Positions 8,801 through 45,817 of a stretch of DNA of 50,696 bases are shown here, piece after piece. The notes below the pieces were generated by a model, which was not told the DNA's origin, made no database searches, and saw only the letters and a list, made by a program, of their open reading frames with translations. The number at the start of each line of letters is the position of its first letter. The first letter of the stretch is position 1. The translations under genes and the position numbers were made by a program. The stretch is from an uncultured Mediterraneibacter sp. (lineage in GTDB: Bacteria > Bacillota > Clostridia > Lachnospirales > Lachnospiraceae): NCBI RefSeq assembly GCF_944377805.1, contig NZ_CALWFZ010000005.1, positions 1 through 50,696 on the forward strand, written 5' to 3'.

Positions 8801-10483
8801 ATGTATCAGGAAGAGTATAAACGCTGGATGGCGGCAGATCTGGAAGATCCGGACCTGAAACCGGAGTTATCGAAAATCGAGGGAAATGATGATGAGATCA
8901 AAGAGCGTTTCGCGGTAGCGCTGAAGTTCGGCACCGCCGGTCTGCGCGGTATTCTCGGAGCGGGAACGAACCGTATGAATATCTACGTCGTTCGCCAGGC
9001 AACGCAGGGACTTGCAAACTGGGTGAAAACACAGGGCGGTACACAGACTGTAGCGATCAGCTATGACAGTCGGATCAAGAGCGATGTGTTCGCCAAGACA
9101 GCGGCGGGAGTGCTGGCTGCCAATGGAATCAAAGTAAGGATCTACGACGCGCTGATGCCGGTGCCGGCGCTCTCGTTTGCGACACGCTATTATAACTGTA
9201 ATGCCGGCGTTATGGTAACCGCATCCCATAATCCGGCAAAGTACAATGGATACAAGGCATACGGCCCGGACGGATGCCAGATGACAGACGACGCGGCAGC
9301 TGTCGTATATGAGGAGATCCAAAAGACCGATGTGCTGGACGGAGCGAAATATATGTCCTTTGCCCAGGGTGTGGAGGAAGGTCTGATCCGTTTTGTGGGA
9401 GACGACTGCAAGAGAGCGCTCTATGACGCGATTGAATCCCGTCAGGTGCGCCCGGGGCTGTGTAAGAGCGCAGGTCTGAAGCTGGTTTACAGCCCGCTTA
9501 ACGGTTCCGGATTGATGCCTGTAACTCAGATTCTCAAAGACATCGGCGTGACGGATATTACTATTGTTCCTGAGCAGGAGTATCCGAACGGATACTTTAC
9601 GACATGCAGCTATCCGAACCCTGAGATCTTTGCCGCTCTGGAACAGGGTCTGAATCTTGCGAAAGAGACGGGAGCTGACCTGATGCTTGCCACCGATCCT
9701 GACGCTGACCGTGTCGGCATCGCGATGAAGTGCCCGGACGGCTCGTATGAGCTGGTCAGCGGAAATGAAGTGGGGGTTCTTCTCCTTGACTACATCTGCG
9801 CGGGACGAATCGAGAAAGGGACGATGCCGGAGAATCCGGTGGCGGTCAAATCCATCGTATCCACACCTCTTGCCGATGCTGTGGCAGAGCATTACGGAGT
9901 AGAACTCAGAAACGTACTGACCGGATTCAAGTGGATCGGCGATCAGATCGCTCAGCTTGAAGAGGCCGGAGAGGTGGATCGATTTATCTTCGGATTTGAG
10001 GAAAGCTACGGATATCTTGCGGGCCCGTATGTGCGTGATAAAGACGCGGTGATCGGCTCCATGCTGATCTGTGAGATGGCGGCTTACTACAGAAGCATCG
10101 GAAGTTCTCTCAAGCGAAGAATGGAAGAGATCTATGCACAGTACGGACGCTATCTGAACAAGATCGACAGCTTCGAGTTCCCGGGACTGAGCGGAATGGA
10201 CAAGATGGCCGGAATCATGCAGGAACTCAGACAGAATCCGATGACAGAGATCGGAGGATATAAGGTGACGTCTGTGACTGATTATCAGAAACCGGAGGAG
10301 ACAGGTCTTCCGGCAGCTAATGTGCTGATCTATAAGCTGGAAAACAATGCCACTGTGATCGTACGTCCGTCAGGAACAGAGCCGAAGATCAAAGTGTATT
10401 ATACGACTCTGGGGAAAGACCTGGCTGAAGCAGAGAGAGAAAAAGAGAAGTTATCAGAGGCCCTGAAGCCGGTTATGGCATAG
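8801..10483 (+). CDS. pgcA: Phosphoglucomutase/phosphomannomutase family enzyme
   Basis: An alpha-D-phosphohexomutase of 560 residues that interconverts hexose 1- and 6-phosphates in the cytoplasm, feeding glycogen, teichoic acid or cell wall sugars. Four hallmarks are seen in order. The phospho-serine loop is TASHNPAKYNGYK with S142. The metal loop is DPDADR (D299, D301, D303). The sugar-binding loop is GFEESYGYL. The phosphate-binding loop is RPSGTEPKIK. Length and GTAGLRG near residue 45 place it with the PgcA/YhxB-type long mutases. A ribosome binding site AGGAGAGG precedes ATG 8801. It is monocistronic. Confidence 0.93.
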   Translation: MYQEEYKRWMAADLEDPDLKPELSKIEGNDDEIKERFAVALKFGTAGLRGILGAGTNRMNIYVVRQATQGLANWVKTQGGTQTVAISYDSRIKSDVFAKTAAGVLAANGIKVRIYDALMPVPALSFATRYYNCNAGVMVTASHNPAKYNGYKAYGPDGCQMTDDAAAVVYEEIQKTDVLDGAKYMSFAQGVEEGLIRFVGDDCKRALYDAIESRQVRPGLCKSAGLKLVYSPLNGSGLMPVTQILKDIGVTDITIVPEQEYPNGYFTTCSYPNPEIFAALEQGLNLAKETGADLMLATDPDADRVGIAMKCPDGSYELVSGNEVGVLLLDYICAGRIEKGTMPENPVAVKSIVSTPLADAVAEHYGVELRNVLTGFKWIGDQIAQLEEAGEVDRFIFGFEESYGYLAGPYVRDKDAVIGSMLICEMAAYYRSIGSSLKRRMEEIYAQYGRYLNKIDSFEFPGLSGMDKMAGIMQELRQNPMTEIGGYKVTSVTDYQKPEETGLPAANVLIYKLENNATVIVRPSGTEPKIKVYYTTLGKDLAEAEREKEKLSEALKPVMA

Positions 10484-26284: not shown

Positions 26285-26428
26285 CTCTTATTCAGAGCAG
26301 TGGAGATACAAAGGATCTGTGAAGCTGCGGCAACCCCTTGACAGGAAGGTGCCAACCTGAGCGAGTAATCGAACAATAAGAGGGTTGTTGAATCAATATC
26401 AGCAGTCCGCTTCGCGGACTGTTTTTTT
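26285..26428 (+). ncRNA. SAM-I (S-box) riboswitch with terminator, before metK
   Basis: P1 pairs CTCTTATT (26285-26292) with AATAAGAG (26375-26382). Inside are the family signatures CAGAG, GTGGAG, GCGGCAACC, AAGGTGCCAACCTGAGCGA. The P3 arm (AGATACAAAGGATCT) is more A-rich than the usual GGGA-GGCCC type. A terminator follows: CAGTCCGC (26403-26410) with GCGGACTG (26414-26421) and T7. High SAM should stabilise P1 and stop transcription before metK, a standard off-switch for SAM synthesis. Confidence 0.9.
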
Positions 26429-26542: not shown

Positions 26543-27733
26543 ATGATGGAAAAATTATTATTTACGTCAGAGTCTGTTACGGAGGGGCATCCCGATAAGA
26601 TGTGCGATCAGATCTCAGACGCGATTCTGGACGCGCTGATGGAACAGGATCCCATGAGCCGCGTGGCATGTGAGACATGCTGCACGACAGGTATGGTAAT
26701 GGTCATGGGAGAGATCACTACAAAAGCATATGTGGATATTCCCAAAATTGTGAGGGATACGGTCCGCGAGATCGGTTATACAAGGGGGAAATACGGTTTT
26801 GACGCAGATACATGCGGTGTGATTACTACGATCGACGAGCAGTCGGCGGACATTGCCCTTGGCGTTGATAAGGCGCTTGAGGCCAGAGAGAATACGATGA
26901 GCGAGGAAAATATCGAGGCGATCGGAGCCGGAGACCAGGGAATGATGTTCGGGTACGCGTCGGATGAGACGGAAGAATACATGCCCTATCCGATAGCGCT
27001 GGCGCATAAGCTCTCCCGCAGGCTTACCGAGGTGCGCAAGGACGGCACCCTTCCTTATCTTCGCCCGGACGGCAAAACTCAGGTCACGGTGGAATACGAT
27101 GAGAACCGCATCCCGAAAAGGCTGGACGCGGTAGTACTGTCCACTCAGCATGATCCGGATGTGACATGTGAGCAGATACACGCCGACATCAGGAAATATG
27201 TGTTTGATAAGATCATACCGGCAGAAATGACAGATGACAATACGAAGTTCTTTATCAATCCCACCGGAAGGTTTGTCATCGGCGGCCCTCACGGCGACAG
27301 CGGACTTACCGGCCGCAAGATCATCGTGGATACATACGGCGGGATGGCCAGACATGGCGGCGGCGCGTTTTCAGGAAAGGACTGTACGAAAGTAGACCGT
27401 TCCGCCGCGTACGCGGCCCGCTATGCGGCGAAAAATATTGTAGGAGCAGGACTTGCGAAGCGCTGCGAGATTCAGCTCTCCTATGCAATCGGCGTGGCCC
27501 GGCCCACATCCGTCTCAGTGGATACATTCGGCACCGGACGGGTGTCGGATGAGAAGTTAGTTGAGATCATCCGGGAGAACTTTGATATGAGGCCCGCGGG
27601 CATCATCCGTATGCTTGATTTGCGCAGACCAATCTACAGACAGACGGCTGCTTACGGACATTTCGGTCGTACGGACCTGGATCTTCCGTGGGAGCGTCTG
27701 GACAAGGTTGACGAGCTGAAGAAATATCTGTAA
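26543..27733 (+). CDS. metK: S-adenosylmethionine synthetase
   Basis: MetK makes S-adenosylmethionine from methionine and ATP. Its 396 residues are full length. Signatures seen are [20 protein letters not shown] at the start, the hexapeptide-like [33 protein letters not shown], and [19 protein letters not shown] with the phosphate-binding P-loop. The start has two adjacent Met codons (26543, 26546) after AAGGAGAAGAG. Control is by the SAM-I riboswitch 115 bases upstream. Confidence 0.97.
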
Positions 27734-30892: not shown

Positions 30893-30906
30893 ATTAAACG
30901 TTTAAT
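30893..30906. promoter_or_regulatory. LacI-type operator O1, perfect palindrome
   Basis: ATTAAACGTTTAAT is a perfect 14-bp palindrome with a central CG, typical of LacI-family sites. It lies about 295 bases before the giant surface protein gene and is flanked by further near-symmetry (GCATAA on the left, TTATGC on the right). The other copies are at 31036, 38344 and 43795. Confidence 0.75.
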
Positions 30907-31200
30907 TTATGCTTGCGTATATAAGTAATGCATGGTATTATTCTAAATAACATAAAAAAATTGAGAGGATGTGGTTTGAAAAAAGTATAAGAATGAAACG
31001 GGCAGAGAAAATAAAGGGGGATAATGCTTAAAATATAAAACGTTTAACTTACCTGATATGAAGCAAAACTCTGTACTCTGCCGGCTGATGCATGGCTCTT
31101 TTGTTACAGTAAATTGTCTGTATCGGCAGGTAACTATGGGATAGTATGCGTGTACAGGAAATACCTGCACACGGACGCCTTTAGCAGAAAGGAAAAAGTT
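30907..31200 (+). promoter_or_regulatory. Long leader of the surface protein gene with operator O2
   Basis: No gene is seen here. TAAAACGTTTAA (31036-31047) is the second operator, one base off the perfect palindrome. With O1 it forms a pair 142 bases apart, a spacing that would allow DNA looping. A TATATAAG stretch near 30918 may be a -10 region but has no convincing -35, so the promoter is unresolved. The ribosome binding site AGAAAGG stands near 31187-31193. Confidence 0.5.
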
Positions 31201-34200
31201 ATGAAGAAAGGGCTTTCTATTGTGCTGTCATCAGTTATGGTGGCAACCACATTGTCGGTGATCCCGGCGGCAAAAGTTGAGGCGGCGCCGTCATCCGATG
31301 CAATCTCCAACACCAGTCTCAGCGCGGAAATCGGAGATCTGGGGCAAATTTCTTCTCTGACGATCAACAACAATAGAAAGAACAGCTACGGACAGGACGT
31401 AAATTTTGTACTGCCAAACGATTCGTCAGGACAGAACAATGAGGCGCATCAGTGGATGGGAGAGATGATCTTTTCATACAGAACAAGTGAGGACGGAACT
31501 TTTCCCGATGACAGAAGCGGATTTGTTGAAGTAGATACAAACAGAACACTGGCAGCAGGCGGATCCACTACATATTCGGATGCATCCGAGAACCTGGAGT
31601 CCAATCCTTACATTGAGAAGAATGTTGAGGATGACAAGGTGGAAGTCACCTTCAGGGGACAGGATCCTGCTTCCGCAGATGAGCGTACAATGAAGGGATT
31701 CGATGTGCATTCAGTGTTTGATATGGGAACAGATGACGGGTCCCTGCTCTGGTCGATTACACTGGAGAACACAAGCGGGGACTACATTGAGTTCGGGGAT
31801 GTGGGACTTCCCATGCCGTGGAACAATAAGTATGCGGATATCAGCGATACATACAATAACCGCATGACGGTGCATACTTTTGCAGGCGCTGACAGCGGGT
31901 ACGCTTACGCTATCCGAACCAGTGGGGAAGGAAACTATATTATGTTTACTCCGGTCCCGGAAACCGGCGCAAGAATCGAATACATTGATCAGTGGATCGG
32001 CAGTACAGGCGGCGGAATGAACGGCGTGCAGGGGACGCGAGACGGAGAGCTGTATGCAAACTGGACAAGCGATACCGGCGGATGGTTCCCGGGACTGAGC
32101 GTATATTACATTCACTCTAAAGATATTCAGAAGACGGGGCGAGGTTACTTTACAGATGCTACCAGTCTTGTGCTGAAACCGGGCGAGAGCAAGACATATC
32201 AGTTCAAGTTCTCGGCAGTGCGCGCGGGTGACAATACTCCTCAGGAAAGCGCTGAGGAGTATAATAACGCATCGGATTCTGTAGAAGAGCGCGAGAACAA
32301 CCAGCGTTCCATCCTATATGATTCGGGAATGATTGACGCAGTTGCAGTGCCGGGATTTCAGACGGCCATCAATATGCCTGCAGAGCTGGATCTTCATTAT
32401 GATCCCGACAGAATTACAGATGTACATGTGGAAATCCAGTGTGTGCATGAGAATGATCCCTGGGACGAAGAACATATCCCGGAGCAGGCAGAGGGGATGG
32501 TAAATAATTCCAGAAGTGTAGAGCACTCGGATACAGATTCTGTCACATGGAAAGAATCGAAAAAACTGGATGGTGAGATGCATAATATTTATGAATTGAC
32601 TTTTGGATGCATCGGAAACAACAGTGTGCGCGTGGAATATACACTGGATGGTAAATATGAGAAATTTACGCAGTTTGAGTTCAATGTACTCGAAGAACTG
32701 GATCAGACAATTGAAGCGCACTCTGACTTTATGGTAGAAAATACACAGGATAATGACCCGGACAGCGCTACATACGGTATCTACAGCGACTGGTATCTTT
32801 CAAGCGGACTTGATCCGTATGAGAGCACACACTGGGGTGACGACTGGAGTCATGATAACATCAACTTCATGACAATGAAGAACTATCTTGATCCGGAGCC
32901 GGAAGAGGTAGAATCGATTGAGAAGTATCTGATTGACTTCATGTGGAACACTTACATGAAAAATACGCAGGATAACTACATAGTGGCAAACTATCTGAGC
33001 GGATCCGGAGCATACAGTGACACAAGTTCGCCATATACGAGAACATTTTCTGAGGTAATGGAGGCCACCGGTTTTTTCAATATGTACCGGATCGTAAAGT
33101 CATATCCCGATTTGATCGATTACCGTGAGCCTGCGGAGTGGTATTTGGAAAAGGCATATAATATTTACAATAAGCGCGTGGGAGCCAGCGCGGTCGGCTT
33201 TTACGGAGAACAACAGGTGCCCCAGATTATCGAGGCGCTCCGCGAGGAAGGCATGACGGAAGAGGCGGCTGTGCTGCAGGAACAGTTTGCTCTGGATAAG
33301 GGAACGATCATGGCCACTGCAGATTATCCCTACGGCTCAGAGTTTGAGTATGATAATACAGGTGAAGAGGGCGCTTACGCTGCTGCAAACGCACTTATAC
33401 AATATTATCCCGACAGCGAGCATACGGAAGCGGCTCTTAATAATATGGAAAGAGCGGAGTGGAAGACCCGCGCGATGCGTGGCATACAACCTACATGGTA
33501 CTATTATGCAGACCCGGTATTCCGAGGCGGTGAGAGCTGGTGGAATTTTCAGTATACCGCGTCTCTGGCAGGATCCATTATGGATGACTGGCTCAGATAT
33601 CAGGACAATGGCTGGGATACAGATTCCAGCGCATGGGCACAGCGCGTGAACTATGCGGCGAAACTTTCCAACTTTAATGCGATCAATATGGGGCAGATTT
33701 CAGCTGAATCCATAGGAGGCATCAGCTGGAGATATACAGCTTCAAAAGGAGGGAACGGGGCTCAGAATGTAAATGACGGCGGAACCCGGGTGATGAACAA
33801 TGGCTGGAACGATTTTTCGGGTGAGAGTGAAGAGGGTCTTTACGGTTCTCTGCTGAGGATCAGCGCTGATGTTACAACAGATCCGGTGTTTGGCCTGACA
33901 GGTTATGGCGCAGAAGTGTCCAAGGAAGGTACGCGCTACACAGTTGCTCCGCTGGATGGGATCGGCAAGAGAATCAACCTTATTGACGACAAAGTATATG
34001 TAGAACTGGAGCAGGATTCTTGTACAACAGCTGTGATTGACGAGGCCGGCGATTATATTAACCTGACAGTAAACAATATAACAGGCACAGAACATCTGTC
34101 AAAAATCACATTAAGCGGAGCGGGCGTTGAAAACGGATACTATAGCGTGAAAGTAAACGAAGAAGCAGGAGAGCAGTGTTGTGTATCCGGAAATGAAGGC

Positions 34201-36912
34201 ATAGCATATGCGGTTGTTCCGGCAGGTGAATCTGCAACGATCACTATCGAGAAAATGGACGGCGGAGAGAATCAGGCACCGAAGATCTATTCCCTTAAAG
34301 CGGATGATGCGCCGCGAGCTCTTATTCCGTTCCGGGTGGAAGCATCTGCCTATGATGACGGAGCTCCGAACGGAACTCTGACGTACAACTGGGAAGTTAC
34401 AGACGCGCCGGAGGGCGGAGAGCTCACATTTGACGCTGACAGTAAACCGTATGCCGAAGCAACGGCATCGCTTGACGGACAGTATACAGTAACGCTGACG
34501 GTAAGCGACGGTGAGAAGCATGTTGCGGAAGAGCTGGTGATCAATATCGGAACAGCTCCCGAAAAGAGCGCGCCGGTCATTGATGAAGTGACAGCGGTAC
34601 AGAGTCCGACAAATACGACGGCAGCTGAGCTGAGCGGTTCTGCGACAGGAGATTCTGCCTACGGAAATGAACTGGAGTATGCATGGAGTATTGTTGCCCG
34701 GCCGGAAGACGGAAACGCAGTGCTTGCAAATGCAGACCAGGAGGATGCGATGATGAAAGCATACGCGCCCGGAATCTATACTGTACGGCTCACTGTAACA
34801 GATAAGAAGTCAACCGTTTACGATGAAGATGTATCATCCTATAAAGACGTAACGTTTGAGATGACTGGAAATGTAGACGGTATTGAACGTGCGGGGACTG
34901 TGATCACCCAGGTGGGAACAGCGCCGGAGCTTCCGGAGACACTTGAGGTAATTTATCCGGACGGTACAATTCGGGCCAGCGGTATCACATGGGACAAAAT
35001 AGCAGAAGGCAGTTATGCTGAAAAAGGAAACTTTACAGTAGGCGGAACCGTGGACGGCACGGAAATGCGTGTAGAAGTGACAGTTATGGTTGCGGAGGGG
35101 GAAGCGGCAAATGTTGCTCTGATCGCAGAACCAAGCGCGATCATTAACACCCCGGAAGACCTGGGCGGCGTAGCAGGTCTGAATGACGGCTACGATCCTG
35201 TGAGTTCCAGAGACACCTCTCATGGCGTATGGCATAACTGGCTCGGTGAACAGGGGGCGGACGCCTGGATACAGTATGACTGGGATTCTGCGGTTACGAT
35301 CTATCAGTCCAACGCATACTACTATACAGACGGAAATTTTGCTCCGGCAGAAGTGTGGTATGAGTATAAGGATGCAAACGGGGAGTGGCGTCCTCTTCCG
35401 AATGTGCAGGGATGCGGCACAGAACTCAACCAGTACAATGCAACCACATTTGATCCGGTGATTACGACTGCGATCCGTATGAATATGTCACCCAGAACAC
35501 TGGGCTGCGGCGTTATTGAATGGCAGATTATGGGGTATGCGGATAATGTAATCGATAAGACACAGCTAAGACGCGTGATTGACAGAGCGAATAATCTGGA
35601 TCTGTCACTGTTTGACACAAGCGAGGAGCAGCTCGCCGAACTGCAGGCTGCAATTGATGAAGCGCAGAGAATAAGCGACAGCAGCGACGCGACACAGGAA
35701 GAAGTGGACGCGGCAGCAGAGAAACTGGCAAATCTGATTCTGACACTGCCGACAGCAGAAGGAAATATGGCTTACAGTGCAAGCGCGACTGCCAGCTTTG
35801 TGTCCTCCTGGGAAAATCTGGGCGCGGTAAATGATGGGGCAATTCCGGAAAGTTCGTATAATCCGCCTATGTCCAGATATGGTTCATGGGGGAATTCAAG
35901 TGCTTATGAGACGATTACCTACACATGGAATTCTGAGGTGGCTTTGAGCGGAGCAGATATCTACTTCTGGTATGACGGCGAGCAGGGCAATTATACAAGT
36001 GGTGGAATTCAGGCTCCCCGAGAGTACTGTTACGAATATCTTGACAGCGAAGGCAACTGGCAGCAGGTAGAAAATGCATCAGCATATGATATTGCGATGG
36101 ATGGATACAATAACACCACATTTGATGAAATAACTACAACATCGATCCGGGTTACCCTGACGAAACAGGCTAATGACGGCAACGGCGTCGGTGTGATGGA
36201 ATGGAAGGTATACGGGACGGCGGCAGGCAGTGAAGAAGAACCGGTTATCAAAGACGCTTTGAACGCTGCAATCGAAGAAGCGGAGAAGCGCCTGGAGGCT
36301 GACTATACAGCAGAGTCCTGGGCTGATTTCGCAAGAGCTCTTGAGAACGCGAAGACTGTAGCAACAGATAAGAACGCGGGTCAGACAGCAGTTGACGAGG
36401 CAACTACTCTTCTGAATGAGGCGATGAGATCGCTTGTAGCAGCGCAGCCAGAACCGGTACCTCCGGTAGAATCAGATAAGGCAACTCTTGAAGCATTGAT
36501 CGCAGAAGCGGAAAATTACAGGCGGGCAGACTACACAGAGGAAACCTGGACGGCGTTTGCAGAGGCGCTTTCAAACGCGCACCGTGTTGTGCAGAACGAA
36601 GCGGCTTCACAGGACGATGTGGATCAGGCGGTGTCCGCTCTTGAGAAAGCCATAAACGCCCTTGAAAGGATAGAATCGGGTGAGGGATCAGCAGGAAAAG
36701 TACCGGGAGGAGAAACCCCAGACGGAAATACCGGAACAGAAACTGATAAAGAGCCAAACAAAAACACAGAAGCAGAAACAGATGAAGGCCAGAACAATGG
36801 CACAGCTGTACAGACCGGAGATGACAGTTCAGTCATGACTTATGGCATACTTACTGCAATTACCGCTGCAGCTATCATATGTATCGCTGGCATAAGGAGA
36901 TGCCGCAGATAA
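31201..36912 (+). CDS. Giant surface-anchored multidomain protein, putative arabinoside-active glycosidase
   Basis: 1,903 residues. A signal peptide (cleavage near VEA-A, residue 28) leads to an N-terminal region of about 990 residues. This starts with a beta-rich part (HQWMGEMIFSYRTSEDG) and continues with a helical part (about 530-930, Trp/Tyr-rich, for example GGESWWNFQYTASLAGS) that looks like an alpha/alpha-toroid. It resembles DUF5695-type proteins, a recollection I cannot verify. Then come two PKD-like domains (about 1023-1115, 1124-1206), a Big_4 Ig-like domain (1224-1297), a discoidin-like domain (1303-1447), FIVAR (1450-1518), a second discoidin-like domain (1520-1674), two more FIVAR (1684-1749, 1759-1822), a polar linker, the sorting-like motif VQTGD (1870-1874), a hydrophobic segment and RRCRR. 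Two operators stand upstream. Placement beside GH127 and GH51 suggests it binds or cuts an arabinose-decorated plant polymer. Confidence 0.75.
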   Translation: MKKGLSIVLSSVMVATTLSVIPAAKVEAAPSSDAISNTSLSAEIGDLGQISSLTINNNRKNSYGQDVNFVLPNDSSGQNNEAHQWMGEMIFSYRTSEDGTFPDDRSGFVEVDTNRTLAAGGSTTYSDASENLESNPYIEKNVEDDKVEVTFRGQDPASADERTMKGFDVHSVFDMGTDDGSLLWSITLENTSGDYIEFGDVGLPMPWNNKYADISDTYNNRMTVHTFAGADSGYAYAIRTSGEGNYIMFTPVPETGARIEYIDQWIGSTGGGMNGVQGTRDGELYANWTSDTGGWFPGLSVYYIHSKDIQKTGRGYFTDATSLVLKPGESKTYQFKFSAVRAGDNTPQESAEEYNNASDSVEERENNQRSILYDSGMIDAVAVPGFQTAINMPAELDLHYDPDRITDVHVEIQCVHENDPWDEEHIPEQAEGMVNNSRSVEHSDTDSVTWKESKKLDGEMHNIYELTFGCIGNNSVRVEYTLDGKYEKFTQFEFNVLEELDQTIEAHSDFMVENTQDNDPDSATYGIYSDWYLSSGLDPYESTHWGDDWSHDNINFMTMKNYLDPEPEEVESIEKYLIDFMWNTYMKNTQDNYIVANYLSGSGAYSDTSSPYTRTFSEVMEATGFFNMYRIVKSYPDLIDYREPAEWYLEKAYNIYNKRVGASAVGFYGEQQVPQIIEALREEGMTEEAAVLQEQFALDKGTIMATADYPYGSEFEYDNTGEEGAYAAANALIQYYPDSEHTEAALNNMERAEWKTRAMRGIQPTWYYYADPVFRGGESWWNFQYTASLAGSIMDDWLRYQDNGWDTDSSAWAQRVNYAAKLSNFNAINMGQISAESIGGISWRYTASKGGNGAQNVNDGGTRVMNNGWNDFSGESEEGLYGSLLRISADVTTDPVFGLTGYGAEVSKEGTRYTVAPLDGIGKRINLIDDKVYVELEQDSCTTAVIDEAGDYINLTVNNITGTEHLSKITLSGAGVENGYYSVKVNEEAGEQCCVSGNEGIAYAVVPAGESATITIEKMDGGENQAPKIYSLKADDAPRALIPFRVEASAYDDGAPNGTLTYNWEVTDAPEGGELTFDADSKPYAEATASLDGQYTVTLTVSDGEKHVAEELVINIGTAPEKSAPVIDEVTAVQSPTNTTAAELSGSATGDSAYGNELEYAWSIVARPEDGNAVLANADQEDAMMKAYAPGIYTVRLTVTDKKSTVYDEDVSSYKDVTFEMTGNVDGIERAGTVITQVGTAPELPETLEVIYPDGTIRASGITWDKIAEGSYAEKGNFTVGGTVDGTEMRVEVTVMVAEGEAANVALIAEPSAIINTPEDLGGVAGLNDGYDPVSSRDTSHGVWHNWLGEQGADAWIQYDWDSAVTIYQSNAYYYTDGNFAPAEVWYEYKDANGEWRPLPNVQGCGTELNQYNATTFDPVITTAIRMNMSPRTLGCGVIEWQIMGYADNVIDKTQLRRVIDRANNLDLSLFDTSEEQLAELQAAIDEAQRISDSSDATQEEVDAAAEKLANLILTLPTAEGNMAYSASATASFVSSWENLGAVNDGAIPESSYNPPMSRYGSWGNSSAYETITYTWNSEVALSGADIYFWYDGEQGNYTSGGIQAPREYCYEYLDSEGNWQQVENASAYDIAMDGYNNTTFDEITTTSIRVTLTKQANDGNGVGVMEWKVYGTAAGSEEEPVIKDALNAAIEEAEKRLEADYTAESWADFARALENAKTVATDKNAGQTAVDEATTLLNEAMRSLVAAQPEPVPPVESDKATLEALIAEAENYRRADYTEETWTAFAEALSNAHRVVQNEAASQDDVDQAVSALEKAINALERIESGEGSAGKVPGGETPDGNTGTETDKEPNKNTEAETDEGQNNGTAVQTGDDSSVMTYGILTAITAAAIICIAGIRRCRR

Positions 36913-37075: not shown

Positions 37076-38149
37076 ATGGTAACGATCAAAGAAATCGCGC
37101 AGATGTGTGGTGTTTCAATTGCGACGGTCTCAAATATATTAAACGGAAAACCAAACGCAAGTGATGCGACAAGACAAAAGGTCCTAAAAGCTGTAAAAGA
37201 AATGAATTATACGCCAAACAGCATCGCTAAGAACCTGAAGTTGAAAAAGAGCCAGGCGATTGGGATCGTGGCGGAGGATCTTACGGTTTTCTGTACACCG
37301 GGCATCATAGACGGAATTACACAATGCTGTGAAGAAAGAGGATATCATATACTGCTTACCAACCTCCGTCTGTACCAAAAATACCGGGATGCTTATTATG
37401 CGAACGATAATTTCGTCAAGATAGTGGAAAAAGAGATAAAAGAGCTTTTGGCCAAGCAAGTGGAGGGGATCGTCTATGTAACGTCCCATGAACGGATTCT
37501 GAAAAAATGTCTGCCTGAGCATCTTCCGGTACCGGCCAGTATGGCATACGGGTACAGTAAATCAGAAGAATATCCGTCTGTGACCGTGGATGATAAAAAC
37601 GGAGCGTATACGCTGATCCGCTATCTGACAGGTAAAGGACACCGATCTATCGGGGTGATTATGGGAAAAGAAGAAAGTATACACACTCACGACAGGCTGA
37701 AAGGTTACCAGAAAGCCTTATATGATGAAAAGATTTTCTTTAATCCGGATATTGTAGTGCAGGGAGACTGGAACAGAGAAGGCGGATATCACAATACAGA
37801 TTATCTGCTCTCCAAAGGTGTGACGGCTATTTTCTGTATGAACGATATTATGGCCGGCGGCGTATATGACCGTCTGGAGGAGAAAGGACTCCTCCCCGGA
37901 AGGGATATCTCGGTAGTAGGGTTCGATAATAGAGACCTGTCTAATTATTACAGACCACCTTTGACTACGATCGCGCTTCCCCTGAGCAGCATCGGCTATA
38001 CGGCATGCAAGGTAGTGATCGATACGATAGAAAACAAGGGCAGAGAAAAGGACGGGAAAGAAACTTCTGATGGCCCAAAGGAAGTTTATGAGACATGCAG
38101 CCTTCTGGTAAGGGATTCTGTGGCAGATCTGAATCAGGCCATGTGCTAA
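37076..38149 (+). CDS. LacI-family transcriptional regulator of the arabinoside locus
   Basis: A 357-residue sugar-responsive repressor. The N-terminal helix-turn-helix and hinge are clear (VTIKEIAQMCGVSIATVSNILNGKPNASDATRQKV, then YTPNSIAKNLKLKKS). A periplasmic-binding-protein-like domain follows (about 60-340), with IGVIMGKEES and the typical VVGFDNRDLSNYYRPPLTTI near the end. LacI-family operators are CG-centred palindromes, and TTAAACGTTTAA occurs in front of three transcription units here, so this protein is their likely reader. No such site precedes its own gene. A GGGAAGG ribosome binding site precedes ATG 37076. The effector is probably arabinose or an arabino-oligosaccharide. Confidence 0.9.
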   Translation: MVTIKEIAQMCGVSIATVSNILNGKPNASDATRQKVLKAVKEMNYTPNSIAKNLKLKKSQAIGIVAEDLTVFCTPGIIDGITQCCEERGYHILLTNLRLYQKYRDAYYANDNFVKIVEKEIKELLAKQVEGIVYVTSHERILKKCLPEHLPVPASMAYGYSKSEEYPSVTVDDKNGAYTLIRYLTGKGHRSIGVIMGKEESIHTHDRLKGYQKALYDEKIFFNPDIVVQGDWNREGGYHNTDYLLSKGVTAIFCMNDIMAGGVYDRLEEKGLLPGRDISVVGFDNRDLSNYYRPPLTTIALPLSSIGYTACKVVIDTIENKGREKDGKETSDGPKEVYETCSLLVRDSVADLNQAMC

Positions 38150-38213: not shown

Positions 38214-38355
38214 TTAAACGATATATCACAAGGTTTATTGACAAAATAGACTGTATATGATATAAAAATTGAAGATAAGAAAAAGTGATTACGCATATGT
38301 GATGGAAAACCACGGGAGGCGTAATTATTTTTTACAATTATAGTTAAACGTTTAA
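38214..38355 (+). promoter_or_regulatory. Control region of the GH127-ABC-GH51 operon
   Basis: A consensus TTGACA (38238-38243) and TATAAA (38261-38266) are spaced by 17 bases. A half operator TTAAACG (38214-38220) lies upstream. The perfect operator TTAAACGTTTAA (38344-38355) lies about 70 bases after the start point, where a bound repressor would block moving polymerase. Between them, ATTACGC (38288-38294) pairs with GCGTAAT (38319-38325) and is followed by TTTTTT (38328-38333), a terminator-like stem in the leader. Confidence 0.65.
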
Positions 38356-38382
38356 TTAAAAACGGAAAGCGGAAGGAGAACT

Positions 38383-40335
38383 ATGAAAAAGGCAGCAAAT
38401 TCAAGTATTTCTCTCAGAAACATTCATATTACAGACGTGTTCTGGAGAAAGTACATCAAACTGGTAAAAAATGTGATCATCCCTTACCAATGGGACATTC
38501 TGAACGACAATCTGCAAGGGGTGGAAACAAGCCACTGTATTGAAAATTTCAGGATTGCCGCCGGAGAAAAGGAAGGTGAATTTTACGGGGCGGTATTTCA
38601 GGACACCGATGTAGCTAAATGGCTTGAGGCAGTAGGCTTTGTCCTGAACTACGAGAGAGATGAAAAATTGGAAAAACTGGCAGATGAGACTATAGATCTG
38701 ATCGGGCGCGCCCAGCAGCCGGACGGGTATCTGAATACATATTTTACGATCAAAGAGCCGGGGCTTCGATGGACTAATTTAATGGAAGGCCATGAGCTGT
38801 ATACGGCGGGACATATGATCGAGGCTGCGATTGCGTACTATGAATCTACGGGAAAAAGAAGATTTCTTGACATTGTATCAAAGTTCGCTGATTTGATCTG
38901 CAGGACATTTGGACCGGAAGAGGGTAAGATACACGGCTATCCCGGACATCAGGAGATTGAACTCGCCCTGGTTAAACTGTACCGGGTGACAGGAGAACAA
39001 AAGTATCTCGATATGGCGAAATATTTTATTGACGCGCGCGGCGTGGGTGAAAATTATTTCCTCAATGAAATAAAATCGGATAAGTATAAGTTGATCATGC
39101 CGGAATTTTCTGATTATGATCCGGTGTACTCTCAGTCGCATATGCCGGTCAGAGAACAGGACAAGGCAGTCGGACATGCCGTCCGCGCGGTATACATGTA
39201 CAGCGCTATGGCAGACCTTTCCTGCGAGTATGACGATGACGGCCTGTTTGAGGCCTGTAAAAGACTGTGGAACAACATGACGCAGAAACAGATGTATATT
39301 ACGGGGGGCATCGGATCATCGGGCATACTGGAACGTTTTACGGCGGACTATGATCTGCCGAATGACTGCAATTATTCAGAGACCTGCGCGTCTATAGGTC
39401 TTGCGTTGTTCGGCAAGAGGATGGCTGATATAACGAAAGATGCTTCTTATATGGATGTGGTGGAAAGAGCGCTCTACAATACACTTCTCTCGGGTATCGC
39501 TATGGACGGAAAGAGCTTTTTCTATGTGAATCCTCTGGAAGTGTGGCCTGCTAACTGCATAGAGAAAACATCCAAGGGGCATGTGAAGCCGGTGCGTCAG
39601 ACATGGTACGGGGTGGCCTGCTGTCCGCCTAATATTACACGGACACTGGCGTCTCTCGGACAGTACATTTATTTACAGGAAAAGGACAGGATTTACACCA
39701 ATCTCTACATAGCCAATCGGACAGAAGTGGAAATAAACGGAGTGAACTTTACTCTCGAACTGACAGGTGATTTCCCCTGGAAAAGTGAGATGAAGTTTCG
39801 GATTAAAGGGGAAAGCAGGACATATGCGTCGCTTTATTTCCGCATTCCGGGATATGCGAGACAGTTCACTATCCGCCTTAACGGCCGTAGCACTGATTTT
39901 TCAGTGGAAAACGGTTATGCAAAGGTGGAGGGCGATTTTGAAGATGACTGTCTGGAGATTTCTTTTGAGACTCCGGCAGAATTCGTGCATGCAAATCCTC
40001 AGGTAAGGGCGGATTCGGGAAAAATCGCTCTGGTAAAAGGCCCTCTTGTCTATTGTCTGGAGGAAACAGACAACGGCTCGAACCTGGCTTCAGTGTTTGT
40101 ACAGTCAGGTCAGGAAATAAAGGAGGAGTACGAGAAGAATCTTCTGGGAGGATGTGTGCTCCTTAAAGTCGAAGGGAAAAAACTTTCTGAAGACGGATGG
40201 GACGAACAGACTCTGTACAGGGGAGGAGGACAGCCGGCGCTTGAGGAGACTGAGCTTACTTTTGTTCCGTACGGGTACTGGGGGAATCGGGACAAAGGCG
40301 AAATGCTTGTCTGGCTAAAAGAAATACTAGGATAG
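38383..40335 (+). CDS. GH127 beta-L-arabinofuranosidase
   Basis: A 650-residue enzyme of glycoside hydrolase family 127 (formerly DUF1680), which removes terminal beta-L-arabinofuranosyl residues with a cysteine nucleophile held by zinc. The family site is complete: E333 and C335 in YSETCAS, and C413 and C414 in GVACCPPN, matching E338, C340, C417 and C418 of Bifidobacterium HypBA1. The (alpha/alpha)6 barrel is seen through QQPDGYLNTYF, GHELYTAGHMIEAA and YITGGIGS. No signal peptide, so it acts in the cytoplasm. AGGAGAA precedes ATG 38383. It leads an operon with two permeases and GH51; the next gene starts 12 bases on. Confidence 0.95.
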   Translation: MKKAANSSISLRNIHITDVFWRKYIKLVKNVIIPYQWDILNDNLQGVETSHCIENFRIAAGEKEGEFYGAVFQDTDVAKWLEAVGFVLNYERDEKLEKLADETIDLIGRAQQPDGYLNTYFTIKEPGLRWTNLMEGHELYTAGHMIEAAIAYYESTGKRRFLDIVSKFADLICRTFGPEEGKIHGYPGHQEIELALVKLYRVTGEQKYLDMAKYFIDARGVGENYFLNEIKSDKYKLIMPEFSDYDPVYSQSHMPVREQDKAVGHAVRAVYMYSAMADLSCEYDDDGLFEACKRLWNNMTQKQMYITGGIGSSGILERFTADYDLPNDCNYSETCASIGLALFGKRMADITKDASYMDVVERALYNTLLSGIAMDGKSFFYVNPLEVWPANCIEKTSKGHVKPVRQTWYGVACCPPNITRTLASLGQYIYLQEKDRIYTNLYIANRTEVEINGVNFTLELTGDFPWKSEMKFRIKGESRTYASLYFRIPGYARQFTIRLNGRSTDFSVENGYAKVEGDFEDDCLEISFETPAEFVHANPQVRADSGKIALVKGPLVYCLEETDNGSNLASVFVQSGQEIKEEYEKNLLGGCVLLKVEGKKLSEDGWDEQTLYRGGGQPALEETELTFVPYGYWGNRDKGEMLVWLKEILG

Positions 40336-40347
40336 GAGGAAAAGGAA

Positions 40348-41247
40348 ATGAAGAAAATTTTATATTCCAAAAAGGCGGCACCCTATATGTTTATCCTTCC
40401 TTTTGTGCTGACTTTTGCGATATTCTGGATCGTTCCGCTGTTTAAATCCGGGATCATGAGCACGCAGAAGATACTGCCGGGGGAGGAGACATTCATCGGA
40501 CTTCAGAATTATACCCGGCTTCTGGGTGACCGTGTGTTTATGGTAGCAGTAGGAAACAGTTTTAAATATATGATATTTACACTGCTCCTGCTGATTCCGA
40601 TCCCGATGCTTCTGGCGTGTCTGGTCAACTCAAAGCAGGCAAACGGAAAAGTGAAAAGCTTTTTCAAATCATCTTTATTTGTTCCGGCATTAACTTCTGT
40701 AGTTGTTGCGGGTACTATCTTCCGTCTGATCTTCGGTGAGATGGATACTTCGCTTATGAATCAGTTTGTGGGCCTGTTTGGTATAGGGCCGATAAAATGG
40801 CTGAAAGGAGAAGTTACAGGCTTTATTGCACTTCTGGCTCTTGCCTGCTGGCGCTGGTGGGGAGTTAATATGATGTATTTCCTGTCTGGTCTGCAGAGCA
40901 TCCCGGAAGATTATTACGAAGCGGCGTCCATAGACGGAGCGACTACATGGCAGAAATTTACCAGAATTACGATTCCCCAGCTGAAACCCACGATTGTCTA
41001 TGTGCTTACGATCAGTATTTACGGTGGTCTGGCAATGTTTAATGAAAGCTATATGCTGTATCAGGGAAACAATTCTCCGAATAATATCGGTCTGACGATC
41101 GTTGGATATCTGTACCGTCAGGGAATTGAGAAAAATGATATGGGATACGCCAGCGCAGTAGGGAGTGTGCTGCTTGTGATCGTCATGGTGATCAATATCA
41201 TACAGCTTACTGCGACGGGAACATTCAAGAAGGAGGTTGACAGATAA
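40348..41247 (+). CDS. Sugar ABC transporter permease (MalF/UgpA type)
   Basis: A 299-residue membrane subunit of a CUT1 carbohydrate importer. Six hydrophobic segments are visible, starting with MFILPFVLTFAIFWIVPLF. The ATPase-contacting EAA loop is EAASIDGATTWQKFTRITIPQL, in the usual place. It shares the TAATG overlap with the next permease gene, so the two are translated together. The substrate is inferred from the neighbouring arabinofuranosidases to be an arabino-oligosaccharide. No ATPase gene is in the cluster. Confidence 0.92.
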   Translation: MKKILYSKKAAPYMFILPFVLTFAIFWIVPLFKSGIMSTQKILPGEETFIGLQNYTRLLGDRVFMVAVGNSFKYMIFTLLLLIPIPMLLACLVNSKQANGKVKSFFKSSLFVPALTSVVVAGTIFRLIFGEMDTSLMNQFVGLFGIGPIKWLKGEVTGFIALLALACWRWWGVNMMYFLSGLQSIPEDYYEAASIDGATTWQKFTRITIPQLKPTIVYVLTISIYGGLAMFNESYMLYQGNNSPNNIGLTIVGYLYRQGIEKNDMGYASAVGSVLLVIVMVINIIQLTATGTFKKEVDR

Positions 41248-42092
41248 TGAAAAAAAGTAAAGGGGGGAAAATTGTCCTTAGTATCTGCACAGTTGTTTTG
41301 TTTCTCCTGCTGGCAGTAATGATTCTTCTGCCGATCTGGGCGATTTTTGTAGGAACTTTCCAGGATGGCAGTATGCTGATTCGCTATGGGCTGAATTTGA
41401 CAATTGATTTTTCACAGGCGAATTTTGACAACTTTATCATGCTCTTTACTGATTCGGGAGATTATTTTATATGGTTCCTTAACAGTGTTATGCTGACAGT
41501 GACTCAGGTTGTGCTGACACTGCTCATCAGCGCTTTTGTGGCATATGGATTTGCGGCATATGAGTTCCGGTTTAAGAACTTCTTTTTCATATGTGTTCTG
41601 CTGATCATGTCCGTGCCGTTTGAGATGATCATGCTTCCCCTGTATGTACAGATCAATGATATGGGGCTTTCAGACAATTACTCAGCCGTTCTTCTTCCGT
41701 TTCTGGCAAATGCTTCGACGATCTTCTTCTTCCGCCAGTATCTTTTGGGTATCCCCAAGGAGATCATTGAGGCAGGAAGGATCGACGGGGCAACTGAATA
41801 TGGAATTTTCTTTAGACTGATTATGCCGATCATGAAACCCTCCTTTGCGGCTATGGCTATACTGAACGGCATGAACAGCTGGAATAATTTCCTCTGGCCT
41901 CTGCTCGTGCTTCGTTCCAGTAACAAATACACACTTCCGATCGGATTAAACACACTGATCACACCGTATGGGAACAACTATGATCTTCTTATCGTTGGCT
42001 CATTTTTCTCTATCCTGCCAATTCTGATCTTGTTCCTGTGCTTCCAGAAATACTTTATCGAAGGCATGACAGCTGGAGCTGTAAAAGGTTAA
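41247..42092 (+). CDS. Sugar ABC transporter permease (MalG/UgpE type)
   Basis: The second 281-residue permease subunit of the importer. It has six membrane segments and the EAA loop EAGRIDGATEYGIFFRLIMPIMKPS, followed by NGMNSWNNFLWPL as in MalG. Its start codon shares one base with the stop of the first permease gene. The C-terminal QKYFIEGMTAGAVKG is the standard family ending. Confidence 0.92.
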   Translation: MKKSKGGKIVLSICTVVLFLLLAVMILLPIWAIFVGTFQDGSMLIRYGLNLTIDFSQANFDNFIMLFTDSGDYFIWFLNSVMLTVTQVVLTLLISAFVAYGFAAYEFRFKNFFFICVLLIMSVPFEMIMLPLYVQINDMGLSDNYSAVLLPFLANASTIFFFRQYLLGIPKEIIEAGRIDGATEYGIFFRLIMPIMKPSFAAMAILNGMNSWNNFLWPLLVLRSSNKYTLPIGLNTLITPYGNNYDLLIVGSFFSILPILILFLCFQKYFIEGMTAGAVKG

Positions 42093-43655
<1,563 letters not shown>

Positions 43656-43751: not shown

Positions 43752-43806
43752 TTTACAAAGAATCAGCAATATGATATATCTATAGAAAACAAAGTAAAAC
43801 GTTTAA
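43752..43806 (+). promoter_or_regulatory. Promoter and operator of the sugar-binding protein gene
   Basis: TTTACA (43752-43757) and TATATC (43775-43780) are spaced by 17 bases. The operator TAAAACGTTTAA (43795-43806), identical to the site at 31036, lies about 8-20 bases after the expected start, a typical repressor position. The ribosome binding site follows at once. Confidence 0.65.
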
Positions 43807-43825
43807 TTAAAGGGAGGAAAGAAAC

Positions 43826-45160
43826 ATGAACAAGAAAAAAGCAACGGCGCTTCTTCTTGCAACCGCAATGGTGATGGGAACACTTGCCGGATGTGGCAGC
43901 AGCGAATCTGAGACGGAAGAAACGAAAACAACATCTGACGGCGCAGCGGTTCTGGACTTCTGGACATTCACAGAAATCCACGGCGATTTCTATGAGACGA
44001 TGGCTGAGAAGTGGAACGAGGAGAATCCGGACAAGCAAGTAAGCATCAACGTAAACGTAATGCCCTATGACGATATGCATAATAAACTGCAGATTGCGCT
44101 AAACTCTGGAGAGGGTACACCGGATTTCGTAGATATCGAGCAGGGCAAGTTCGCTAACTTTACCCAGGGAACACCGGCTCTGATGGATCTGACGGAAACA
44201 GCAGGTTCCTATACAGCTGACGGAAAGATTGTTCAGTCCCGTCTGGATCTTTACAGCAAAGACGGAAAACTGTACGGACTTCCGACACATGTGGGCGCAA
44301 CAGTCGCTTTCTATAATACAGAACTTCTGGAAGCGGCAGGCATTGACTATACAACGATCGAGACCTGGGATGATTTTAAAGAGGCCGGAAGCAAATATTA
44401 TGAGGCAACAGGCAAATATCTCGGAACAGCAGACACAAGTGCCCTTTGGACAGAGAACCTGTTGATGGCTGAACTGGGAGGCGAGTATACAAACGGCGAT
44501 GACGTGACAGTAAATAGTCCTGAGATGGTTGAGGCTATGACAATCCTGAAAGACCTCTACGATGCGCACGCAATCGGAACTGTACCGGGAGGAAATCCGG
44601 ACAAAGAAGAAGCTTACGGCGCGTTCAACAACGGAGATTTCGCATGTGCGATCATGCCGTTCTGGCAGATGTCCAGATACACAAGCTATATGCAGGATCT
44701 GTCAGGGAAAATTGCAATCGCAGTAGCTCCGCAGCTTGAGAGCGGGCAGAACGTATCCGTCGGCGGCGGTGGAACAGGCACAGCGGTTGTAGCAGACAAG
44801 CCGAATTCTGAACTGGCAGCCGAATTCATTGCATACGCGAAACTGTCTGACGAAGGCTCTGTTGAGATCTGGAATATGCTTGGGTTTGACCCGTGCAACA
44901 CAAGCGTATGGGATAATGAAGAAGTGACAAATAACCCGGATAATCAGTATGTACAGTACTTCCAGAACAATCCGTTTGATGTGCTGAAAGAGATAAGAGA
45001 CAGCATTGTCGGTCTTGAGTCACATGCGTCCTCTTCCTATCCTTCTATCAACAATCAGTTCACCACTGTAACATTAAATGCAATCTTTGAGGATGGAACA
45101 GATGTACAGACAGCTCTTGATCAGGCACAGTCAGATCTGAAAAATGAGTTGGGGCAGTAA
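43826..45160 (+). CDS. Sugar ABC transporter substrate-binding lipoprotein
   Basis: A 444-residue CUT1 extracellular binding protein. The signal peptide ends in the lipobox TLAGC, so it is anchored on the outer face of the membrane. The mature part has the family pattern VLDFWTFTEIHGDFYETMAEKWNEENP, then a Gly/Trp-containing middle (GTADTSALWTENLLMAELGG) and a Trp-rich ligand region. GGGAGGAAAG precedes ATG 43826. It has its own promoter and operator, unlike the permeases; the binding protein is usually needed in excess over the membrane subunits. Its ligand is expected to be an arabino-oligosaccharide. Confidence 0.93.
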   Translation: MNKKKATALLLATAMVMGTLAGCGSSESETEETKTTSDGAAVLDFWTFTEIHGDFYETMAEKWNEENPDKQVSINVNVMPYDDMHNKLQIALNSGEGTPDFVDIEQGKFANFTQGTPALMDLTETAGSYTADGKIVQSRLDLYSKDGKLYGLPTHVGATVAFYNTELLEAAGIDYTTIETWDDFKEAGSKYYEATGKYLGTADTSALWTENLLMAELGGEYTNGDDVTVNSPEMVEAMTILKDLYDAHAIGTVPGGNPDKEEAYGAFNNGDFACAIMPFWQMSRYTSYMQDLSGKIAIAVAPQLESGQNVSVGGGGTGTAVVADKPNSELAAEFIAYAKLSDEGSVEIWNMLGFDPCNTSVWDNEEVTNNPDNQYVQYFQNNPFDVLKEIRDSIVGLESHASSSYPSINNQFTTVTLNAIFEDGTDVQTALDQAQSDLKNELGQ

Positions 45161-45346: not shown

Positions 45347-45696
45347 GGATTGAGAAAGCCAATGCGAAGAACAGGACAGGACTTCCATGACTGACATGCT
45401 TTCAGAGAGTTTCCGGGAGGTGTGAGGAAACAGCAGGGTCGGGGAAGCTATCACCTGCGAGCAGTCAGGATGAAAAGAATCTGAGCAGAGAGATGCAATT
45501 GACAGATCCGATTAGTCCGGACCGGGATTCCCCCGTTATAGGGAAATCTGTTAAACCGCAGTATAAAACCGGATGTACGGGTACATATGCGGGAGACGGA
45601 ACCGAGAGACCGGGATTCCCGGTAACAGAAGTGGTAACGCGGAGGAAATATACTTCGTCTTCTGACAGAGTGATCTGTCGGAGGGCGATTTTTTTT
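45347..45696 (+). ncRNA. T-box riboswitch, probably isoleucine-specific, with terminator
   Basis: Stem I carries AGAGAG (45404-45409) and GGTGTGAGG. Its base pairs TGC (45363-45365) with GCA (45461-45463) around a kink, then CAGG (45372-45375) with CCTG (45454-45457). The loop before CCTG reads ATC-A, with ATC at 45450-45452 as the specifier codon (Ile). The T-box is AAGTGGTAACGCGG (from 45629), whose TGGT fits a tRNA ending in ACCA, as tRNA-Ile does. The terminator pairs 45656-45669 with 45674-45687 and ends in T8. Uncharged tRNA should turn on the downstream CstA-type transporter. Confidence 0.85.
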
Positions 45697-45755: not shown

Positions 45756-45817
45756 AAATGCCTGATAAACAGACACTTCCTAACTTGTTACAGTCTTATA
45801 AAAAAGGAGAGAGGATT

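Follow-up and report, generated by a model that had tools for sequence, protein, structure and literature searches.

The 50,696-nucleotide stretch of an uncultured Mediterraneibacter sp. analysed here (the window; contig NZ_CALWFZ010000005.1 of assembly GCF_944377805.1, positions 1 to 50,696) carries at 31201..36912 the gene of a 1903-residue protein, which is probably a cell-surface-anchored, carbohydrate-cleaving enzyme of the Pfam family DUF5695. Judging from its sequence, its neighbours and a predicted structure, it would release oligosaccharides of alpha- and beta-L-arabinofuranose (L-Araf), and so act as a functional counterpart of the Bifidobacterium longum enzyme HypBA2 on a fold related to polysaccharide lyase family 27 (PL27). 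This explanation is held, as a whole, to be somewhat more probable than its negation. Its strongest single result is a predicted regulon: a shared operator joins the DUF5695 gene to a unit encoding a glycoside hydrolase of family 127 (GH127), two permeases and a glycoside hydrolase of family 51 (GH51), and to the gene of a solute-binding protein.

The surface protein and its operator

The open reading frame is uninterrupted from the ATG at 31201, from which residues are numbered, to the stop at 36910-36912. An earlier sequence-only reading of the window described a signal peptide, a series of accessory domains and a C-terminal anchor, and these hold both by eye and in Pfam, with the discoidin match falling under its cut-off. 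The same reading left the N-terminal region of about 990 residues unplaced, which is wrong because this module belongs to a named Pfam family: a profile search assigns it to DUF5695 (PF18951) at 1.9e-32 and 112.7 bits against a cut-off of 25.2. The PKD, Big_4, galactose-binding and FIVAR domains are all above the Pfam cut-off. From the N-terminus onwards, the protein is composed of the following parts:

31201..31284, +, signal peptide (MKKGLSIVLSSVMVATTLSVIPAAKVEAAP), read by eye
31288..34197, +, DUF5695 module (beta-sandwich, helical barrel, beta-sandwich), the proposed catalytic module
34375..34821, +, PKD / K319L-like domains (Pfam)
34906..35061, +, Big_4 Ig-like domain (Pfam)
35221..35481, +, F5/8-type-C-like (discoidin) domain (Pfam, 24.1 bits, under the cut-off of 27.8)
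36040..36201, +, BgaA-like galactose-binding domain (Pfam, 28.3 bits, cut-off 27)
36475..36666, +, FIVAR domain, the best among three stretches (Pfam)
36808..36909, +, VQTGD sortase-like signal, hydrophobic stretch and basic tail (RRCRR), read by eye

The genes that follow encode a regulator, two arabinofuranosidases and an ATP-binding cassette (ABC) importer, and four operator sites were located by pattern search:

37076..38149, +, LacI-family regulator, the presumed operator binder
38383..40335, +, GH127 beta-L-arabinofuranosidase (PF07944, 3.2e-112), no signal peptide seen in the translation
40348..41247, +, ABC permease 1
41247..42092, +, ABC permease 2
42102..43655, +, GH51-type alpha-L-arabinofuranosidase (PF06964, 2.3e-47), no signal peptide seen in the translation
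43826..45160, +, ABC solute-binding lipoprotein (PF01547), LAGC lipobox in the translation
30893..30906, unstranded, operator 1, upstream of the DUF5695 gene
31037..31048, +, operator 2, upstream of the DUF5695 gene
38343..38356, unstranded, operator 3, upstream of the GH127 gene
43796..43807, +, operator 4, upstream of the binding-protein gene

All four sites share the palindromic core AAACGTTTAA, two of them standing before the DUF5695 gene and one each before the GH127 and binding-protein genes. The full pattern WAAACGTTTAAY has six matches in the window, which make up these four sites, against an expectation of 0.01, and the remainder of the 2.28-Mb assembly (92.6% complete) contains none; the reversed pattern, used as a control, matches once in the whole assembly. 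In a set of 60 homologous loci obtained from a scan of genome contigs (L009-L068), the operator pattern is present in 24 and the reversed control in none, and in L009-L012 and L015 operator sites precede both the DUF5695 and the GH127 genes. The sequence-only reading is therefore upheld in placing the surface protein next to GH127 and GH51 and under the same operators. The LacI-family protein presumably binds the palindrome. A surface enzyme, an ABC importer and GH127 would thus be co-regulated through the shared operator, as in a HypBA-type system. The GH127 gene is the sole PF07944 match of the assembly. Behind the operator, the genes as read include no unsaturated-uronyl hydrolase, no uronate or rhamnose enzyme, no glycosidase besides GH127 and GH51, and no other surface enzyme.

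A predicted fold related to PL27 and a proposed role like that of GH121

The HypBA system of B. longum serves as the comparison for beta-arabinoside breakdown. According to its structural description, HypBA2 (GH121, PDB 6m5a) resembles the window protein in its surface anchoring, its size and its barrel set between beta-sandwiches, and uses Glu383, Asp515 and Glu713 as catalytic acids (PMC7263609). The likeness extends to an accessory tail and to a gene cluster with GH127 and an ABC importer. It does not extend to the catalytic module, which has no sequence or profile relation to that of HypBA2, nor to the alpha-arabinofuranosidase, which in the window is a GH51 enzyme without a signal peptide. 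GH127 (HypBA1 type) is the partner behind the same operator, but a different protein from the DUF5695 module.

The lack of kinship with GH121 is apparent in several comparisons. Against the NCBIfam HypBA2 model, the full-length protein reaches an E-value of 3.2e-59 but scores far under the model cut-off, with its best stretch in the tail (about residues 1525-1746); the module alone (residues 30-1042) gives no match at E-values up to 10, so that the full-length match comes from beyond the module. The same model recovers a true GH121 relative (L021:17809-22920; 6m5a, 3e-191), the second gene downstream of another DUF5695 gene, with an E-value of 0 over model positions 6-1444. Profile alignment with hhalign of the DUF5695 sequences gives E 0.28 over 34 columns against this GH121 protein, with no alignment on which to place the three catalytic acids of HypBA2, and E 0.2 over 24 columns against GH127. 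GH121 homology of the module is accordingly not supported, and neither is the earlier suggestion of a distant GH121-like enzyme. The AlphaFold2 secondary structure and the fold matches to (alpha/alpha) barrels predict a helical barrel between beta-sandwiches, the architecture of GH121; GH121 structures are absent among the fold matches listed. The wider claim of a clostridial HypBA2 counterpart keeps its functional half, which is supported by the operator, by GH127 beside 27 of the 60 loci and by the fact that a search of the source genome for the GH121 module found none; the half that concerned descent is not supported. Matches to GH121 at E-values up to 1e-5, including a weak one, occur in 7 of 31 DUF5695 genomes; that of L018 has its match on the contig of the DUF5695 locus, immediately upstream of the stretch fetched. 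The two families can therefore coexist. In the source genome, sequence searches point to no candidate for the surface step other than the DUF5695 protein.

The nearest solved relative, by both sequence and fold, is the PL27 L-rhamnose-alpha-1,4-D-glucuronate lyase BACCELL_00875 (PDB 5no8/5nok), which the sequence-only reading did not consider. The AlphaFold model of the module consists of a beta-sandwich, a helical barrel and a second beta-sandwich; its N-terminal sandwich and predicted (alpha/alpha)6 barrel correspond to the PL27 fold, and the barrel matches also include GH76 and other enzymes. PL27 differs in lacking the C-terminal beta-sandwich and the accessory domains, and the window locus differs in having no uronate-processing genes behind its operator. 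Identity between the module and PL27 is about 16%, and the profile similarity has an E-value of about 1e-6 (0.014 and 2.4 for single stretches). A true PL27 relative scores 4e-135, and the module is thus not close enough to be placed in that CAZy family.

Residues were compared in an alignment of 29 DUF5695 sequences and in a wider one, of low identity and uncertain in its details, that adds the canonical family member of locus L065, the members L005 and L069, a group of 810-residue relatives described below and PL27. Invariant acids among the 29 sequences include Asp547, Asp548, Glu670, Glu714, Asp718, Glu723 and Glu778, so that the helical barrel and the conserved acidic residues sought for the N-terminal region are both present, the barrel as a prediction. 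The positions of greatest interest are:

31873..31875, +, His225, invariant in 29 sequences, also His in two PL27 sequences
32839..32844, +, Asp547-Asp548 (WGDDW), candidate pocket residues, invariant in 29 sequences
33040..33042, +, Arg614, common to the DUF5695 sequences compared, the 810-residue relatives and PL27
33340..33342, +, Glu714 (GSEFEYDNTGEEG), prime candidate catalytic residue, kept in the DUF5695 sequences compared, the 810-residue relatives and PL27
33532..33534, +, Glu778 (GGESWWNFQY), invariant in 29 sequences, not in canonical L065, L005 or L069

Glu778 is hence restricted to the window-type groups. Of the residues conserved among three PL27 sequences, His225, Arg614 and Glu714 are shared and two histidines have no counterpart: that of the HEVN[YF]EQ motif is replaced by Ser713, and the GDTFPHY motif aligns with GSIMDDW, in which no conserved His takes the place of its own. 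His225, though matched in PL27, is not found in canonical L065 or in the 810-residue relatives.

Distribution of DUF5695 and its linkage to GH127

A genome search finds a single DUF5695 gene in the source genome, and the family occurs in 3 of 196 genomes of the order and in 6 of 398 of a sample of the phylum, both counts including the source genome. The 60 homologous loci come from Mediterraneibacter, other Lachnospiraceae, Oscillospiraceae and related Clostridia, Paenibacillus, Cohnella, Pseudobutyrivibrio and one Opitutia metagenome-assembled genome (MAG). The Opitutia locus (L065) holds a canonical DUF5695 gene, a window-type DUF5695 gene and GH127 together; its canonical member scores 1258 bits against the 112.7 bits of the window protein, which marks the window-type group as divergent in sequence from the core of the family.

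Linkage was scored by tblastn with the window GH127 (E-values up to 1e-8) in flanks reaching at most 10 kb beyond the module, several of them shortened by contig ends. GH127 was found in this way at 27 loci, in all but one of them (26/27) on the strand of DUF5695, at a distance of 16 to 6168 bp. Among 30 of the 60 loci, whose genomes each have 1 to 9 PF07944 matches (weak and split ones included), 13 have GH127 within the fetched stretch, compared with 0.63 expected by chance; GH51, a partial control, is mildly enriched (3 of 30, 0.42 expected). In Pseudobutyrivibrio, whose module is 36% identical to that of the window, the genes leading up to DUF5695 encode a histidine kinase, an AraC-type response regulator, binding proteins, two permeases and GH127, and the GH127 match ends 40 bp ahead of the DUF5695 frame.

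A second protein accompanies DUF5695 in 10 of the 60 loci, all of them in Paenibacillus. This protein of 803-832 residues (the 810-residue relative; L017:6058-8487, and further loci L022, L023, L028, L029, L031, L033, L035, L043 and L053) gave no match in Pfam (L017, L029) or NCBIfam (L017, L029, L043) and none of significance in the PDB for the members tested, and no signal peptide was seen in the two sequences read. By hhalign it is remotely related to the DUF5695 module (E 2e-9) and to PL27 (E 6.6e-6); the link to DUF5695 rests on this comparison, the structure model being excluded for its low confidence (pLDDT, the predicted local distance difference test, of 46.6). Because GH127 is found in the flank of L043 but of none of the other nine loci, the 810-residue protein may be suggested to perform the intracellular step where GH127 is absent.

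Several other arrangements of the family were observed. In L013 (9842-18664 and 20613-22910) and likewise in L014, two tandem DUF5695 genes, about 81% identical, have a binding-protein gene between them and no GH127 in the fetched flank; L013:20613-22910, once considered a cytoplasmic relative, was rejected as such, being the tandem copy, 81% identical to its neighbour. Stand-alone DUF5695 frames of 930 and 952 codons are found in L005 (genome G019) and L069 (genome G339), and the former shows no evident signal peptide, a hint that one branch of the family is intracellular. The DUF5695 gene of L027 and L048 (Paenibacillus) is apparently interrupted, with a broken frame. In Pseudoflavonifractor sp. 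An85 (L041, genome G605) the operator pattern stands at 9714 before a DUF5695 gene without GH127 in its flank, and the single GH127 and single GH51 matches of the genome lie together elsewhere (C59:189099 and C59:193668); the regulon may therefore be split there. The Mediterraneibacter MAGs of L010 and L012 (G588, G589) contain several frames of 1402 to 1796 residues with PF07944 matches, which look as if GH127-like enzymes had become surface proteins.

Two regulatory RNA elements were noted elsewhere in the window. A T-box leader at 45358-45665 (RF00230; E 6.8e-21; 92.4 bits, just under the gathering score of 93) precedes a CstA-family transporter gene at 45758 and suggests control of the transporter by uncharged tRNA. 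The S-adenosylmethionine (SAM) riboswitch at 26285-26382 (RF00162), upstream of an S-adenosylmethionine synthetase gene at 26543, is of an ordinary kind.

Proposed route, alternatives and meaning

In the route proposed here, the DUF5695 module would act extracellularly and cut L-Araf-rich chains of plant glycans; hydroxyproline-rich glycoproteins such as extensin are the first candidate substrate, and arabinan or arabinogalactan decorated with beta-L-Araf the second. The released oligosaccharide would carry both alpha- and beta-L-Araf and would be taken up by the dedicated ABC importer. In the cytoplasm, GH51 would remove alpha-L-Araf and GH127 the beta-L-Araf units. The product is taken to be one that GH51 and GH127 can finish because no other glycosidase lies behind the operator. 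Since GH51, the sole alpha-arabinofuranosidase of the regulon, has no signal peptide, removal of the alpha cap would follow import; the B. longum HypBA route differs on this point. The chains of hydroxyproline-rich glycoproteins are alpha-capped beta-arabinosides and fit such a product. The prime candidate for catalysis would be Glu714, partnered by Asp547/Asp548 or Glu778. Hydrolysis is more likely than beta-elimination, given that no unsaturated-uronyl hydrolase lies behind the operator and that two PL27 histidines are lost.

Several observations weigh against this route. The nearest solved relative is a lyase and not a hydrolase, and a histidine conserved in PL27 (His225) is invariant here too. 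GH127 is missing from the flank in 33 of the 60 loci, several with shortened flanks, and some Paenibacillus loci carry the 810-residue relative in its stead; the 27 linked loci are not independent, seven being near-identical Pseudobutyrivibrio loci, and the contrast with chance is inflated because the expectation assumes random placement, whereas carbohydrate genes generally cluster. LacI-family operators in general share palindromes with a central CG. Text searches of a single literature library found no DUF5695 member with a tested function, and the titles and abstract openings that broader searches listed contain no account of the family; CAZy may nevertheless list an assignment for it.

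The lyase kinship leads to a rival in which the module is a PL27-like exo-lyase: acting at a 4-substituted uronic acid of arabinogalactan, it would free by beta-elimination a non-reducing arabinosyl unit or an oligosaccharide, and the unsaturated uronate would stay on the polymer. Such an activity is rather unlikely here, since it has to accommodate Ser713 in place of one PL27 histidine, the want of a conserved counterpart for the other, an aligned identity of only 16%, and a regulon that, as read, encodes none of the enzymes expected to process uronate or rhamnose. It is less probable still that the enzyme acts on some other plant glycan with a non-arabinose backbone, for example pectic or arabinogalactan side chains, and that GH127 and GH51 merely trim arabinose from the imported product. 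A rhamnogalacturonan lyase family 11 protein near the DUF5695 gene of L054 (Paenibacillus), where GH127 is not a neighbour, speaks for this idea, as do the ten loci with the 810-residue relative, just one of which has GH127; yet neither the window regulon nor the Pseudobutyrivibrio stretch up to DUF5695 holds a further glycosidase, so that these genes could not complete the breakdown of a backbone other than arabinose. The many accessory binding domains would also suit an adhesin without catalytic activity, which would hold the glycan for a separate surface enzyme to cut. This is very improbable: the predicted helical barrel resembles PL27, GH76 and other enzymes, several Asp and Glu residues are invariant across the 29 sequences, Glu714 is kept even in the 810-residue relatives and PL27, and no other surface enzyme lies behind the operator.

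A surface arabino-oligosaccharide-releasing hydrolase thus stays the preferred explanation, and the earlier alternative of a new family acting on beta-arabinosides is plausible, with PL27 as its closest relative. A bolder extension, tentative and rather more doubtful than the route itself, is that DUF5695 is a new glycoside hydrolase family that arose within the lineage of a lyase fold (PL27). It would represent a second, independent invention of the release of beta-L-arabino-oligosaccharides at the cell surface, beside GH127 in Lachnospiraceae, Oscillospiraceae, Paenibacillaceae and the Opitutia MAG, with an alpha-capped product finished inside the cell.

Extensins and other hydroxyproline-rich plant glycoproteins carry beta-L-arabinofuranosides, and few surface enzymes are known to open these. 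For an uncharacterised Pfam family of gut, rumen and Paenibacillus bacteria, the analysis proposes candidate catalytic residues and a class of substrates that can be tested. By placing a lyase fold in a gene context of the hydrolase type, it may also bear on the interconversion of hydrolases and lyases among helical-barrel enzymes.
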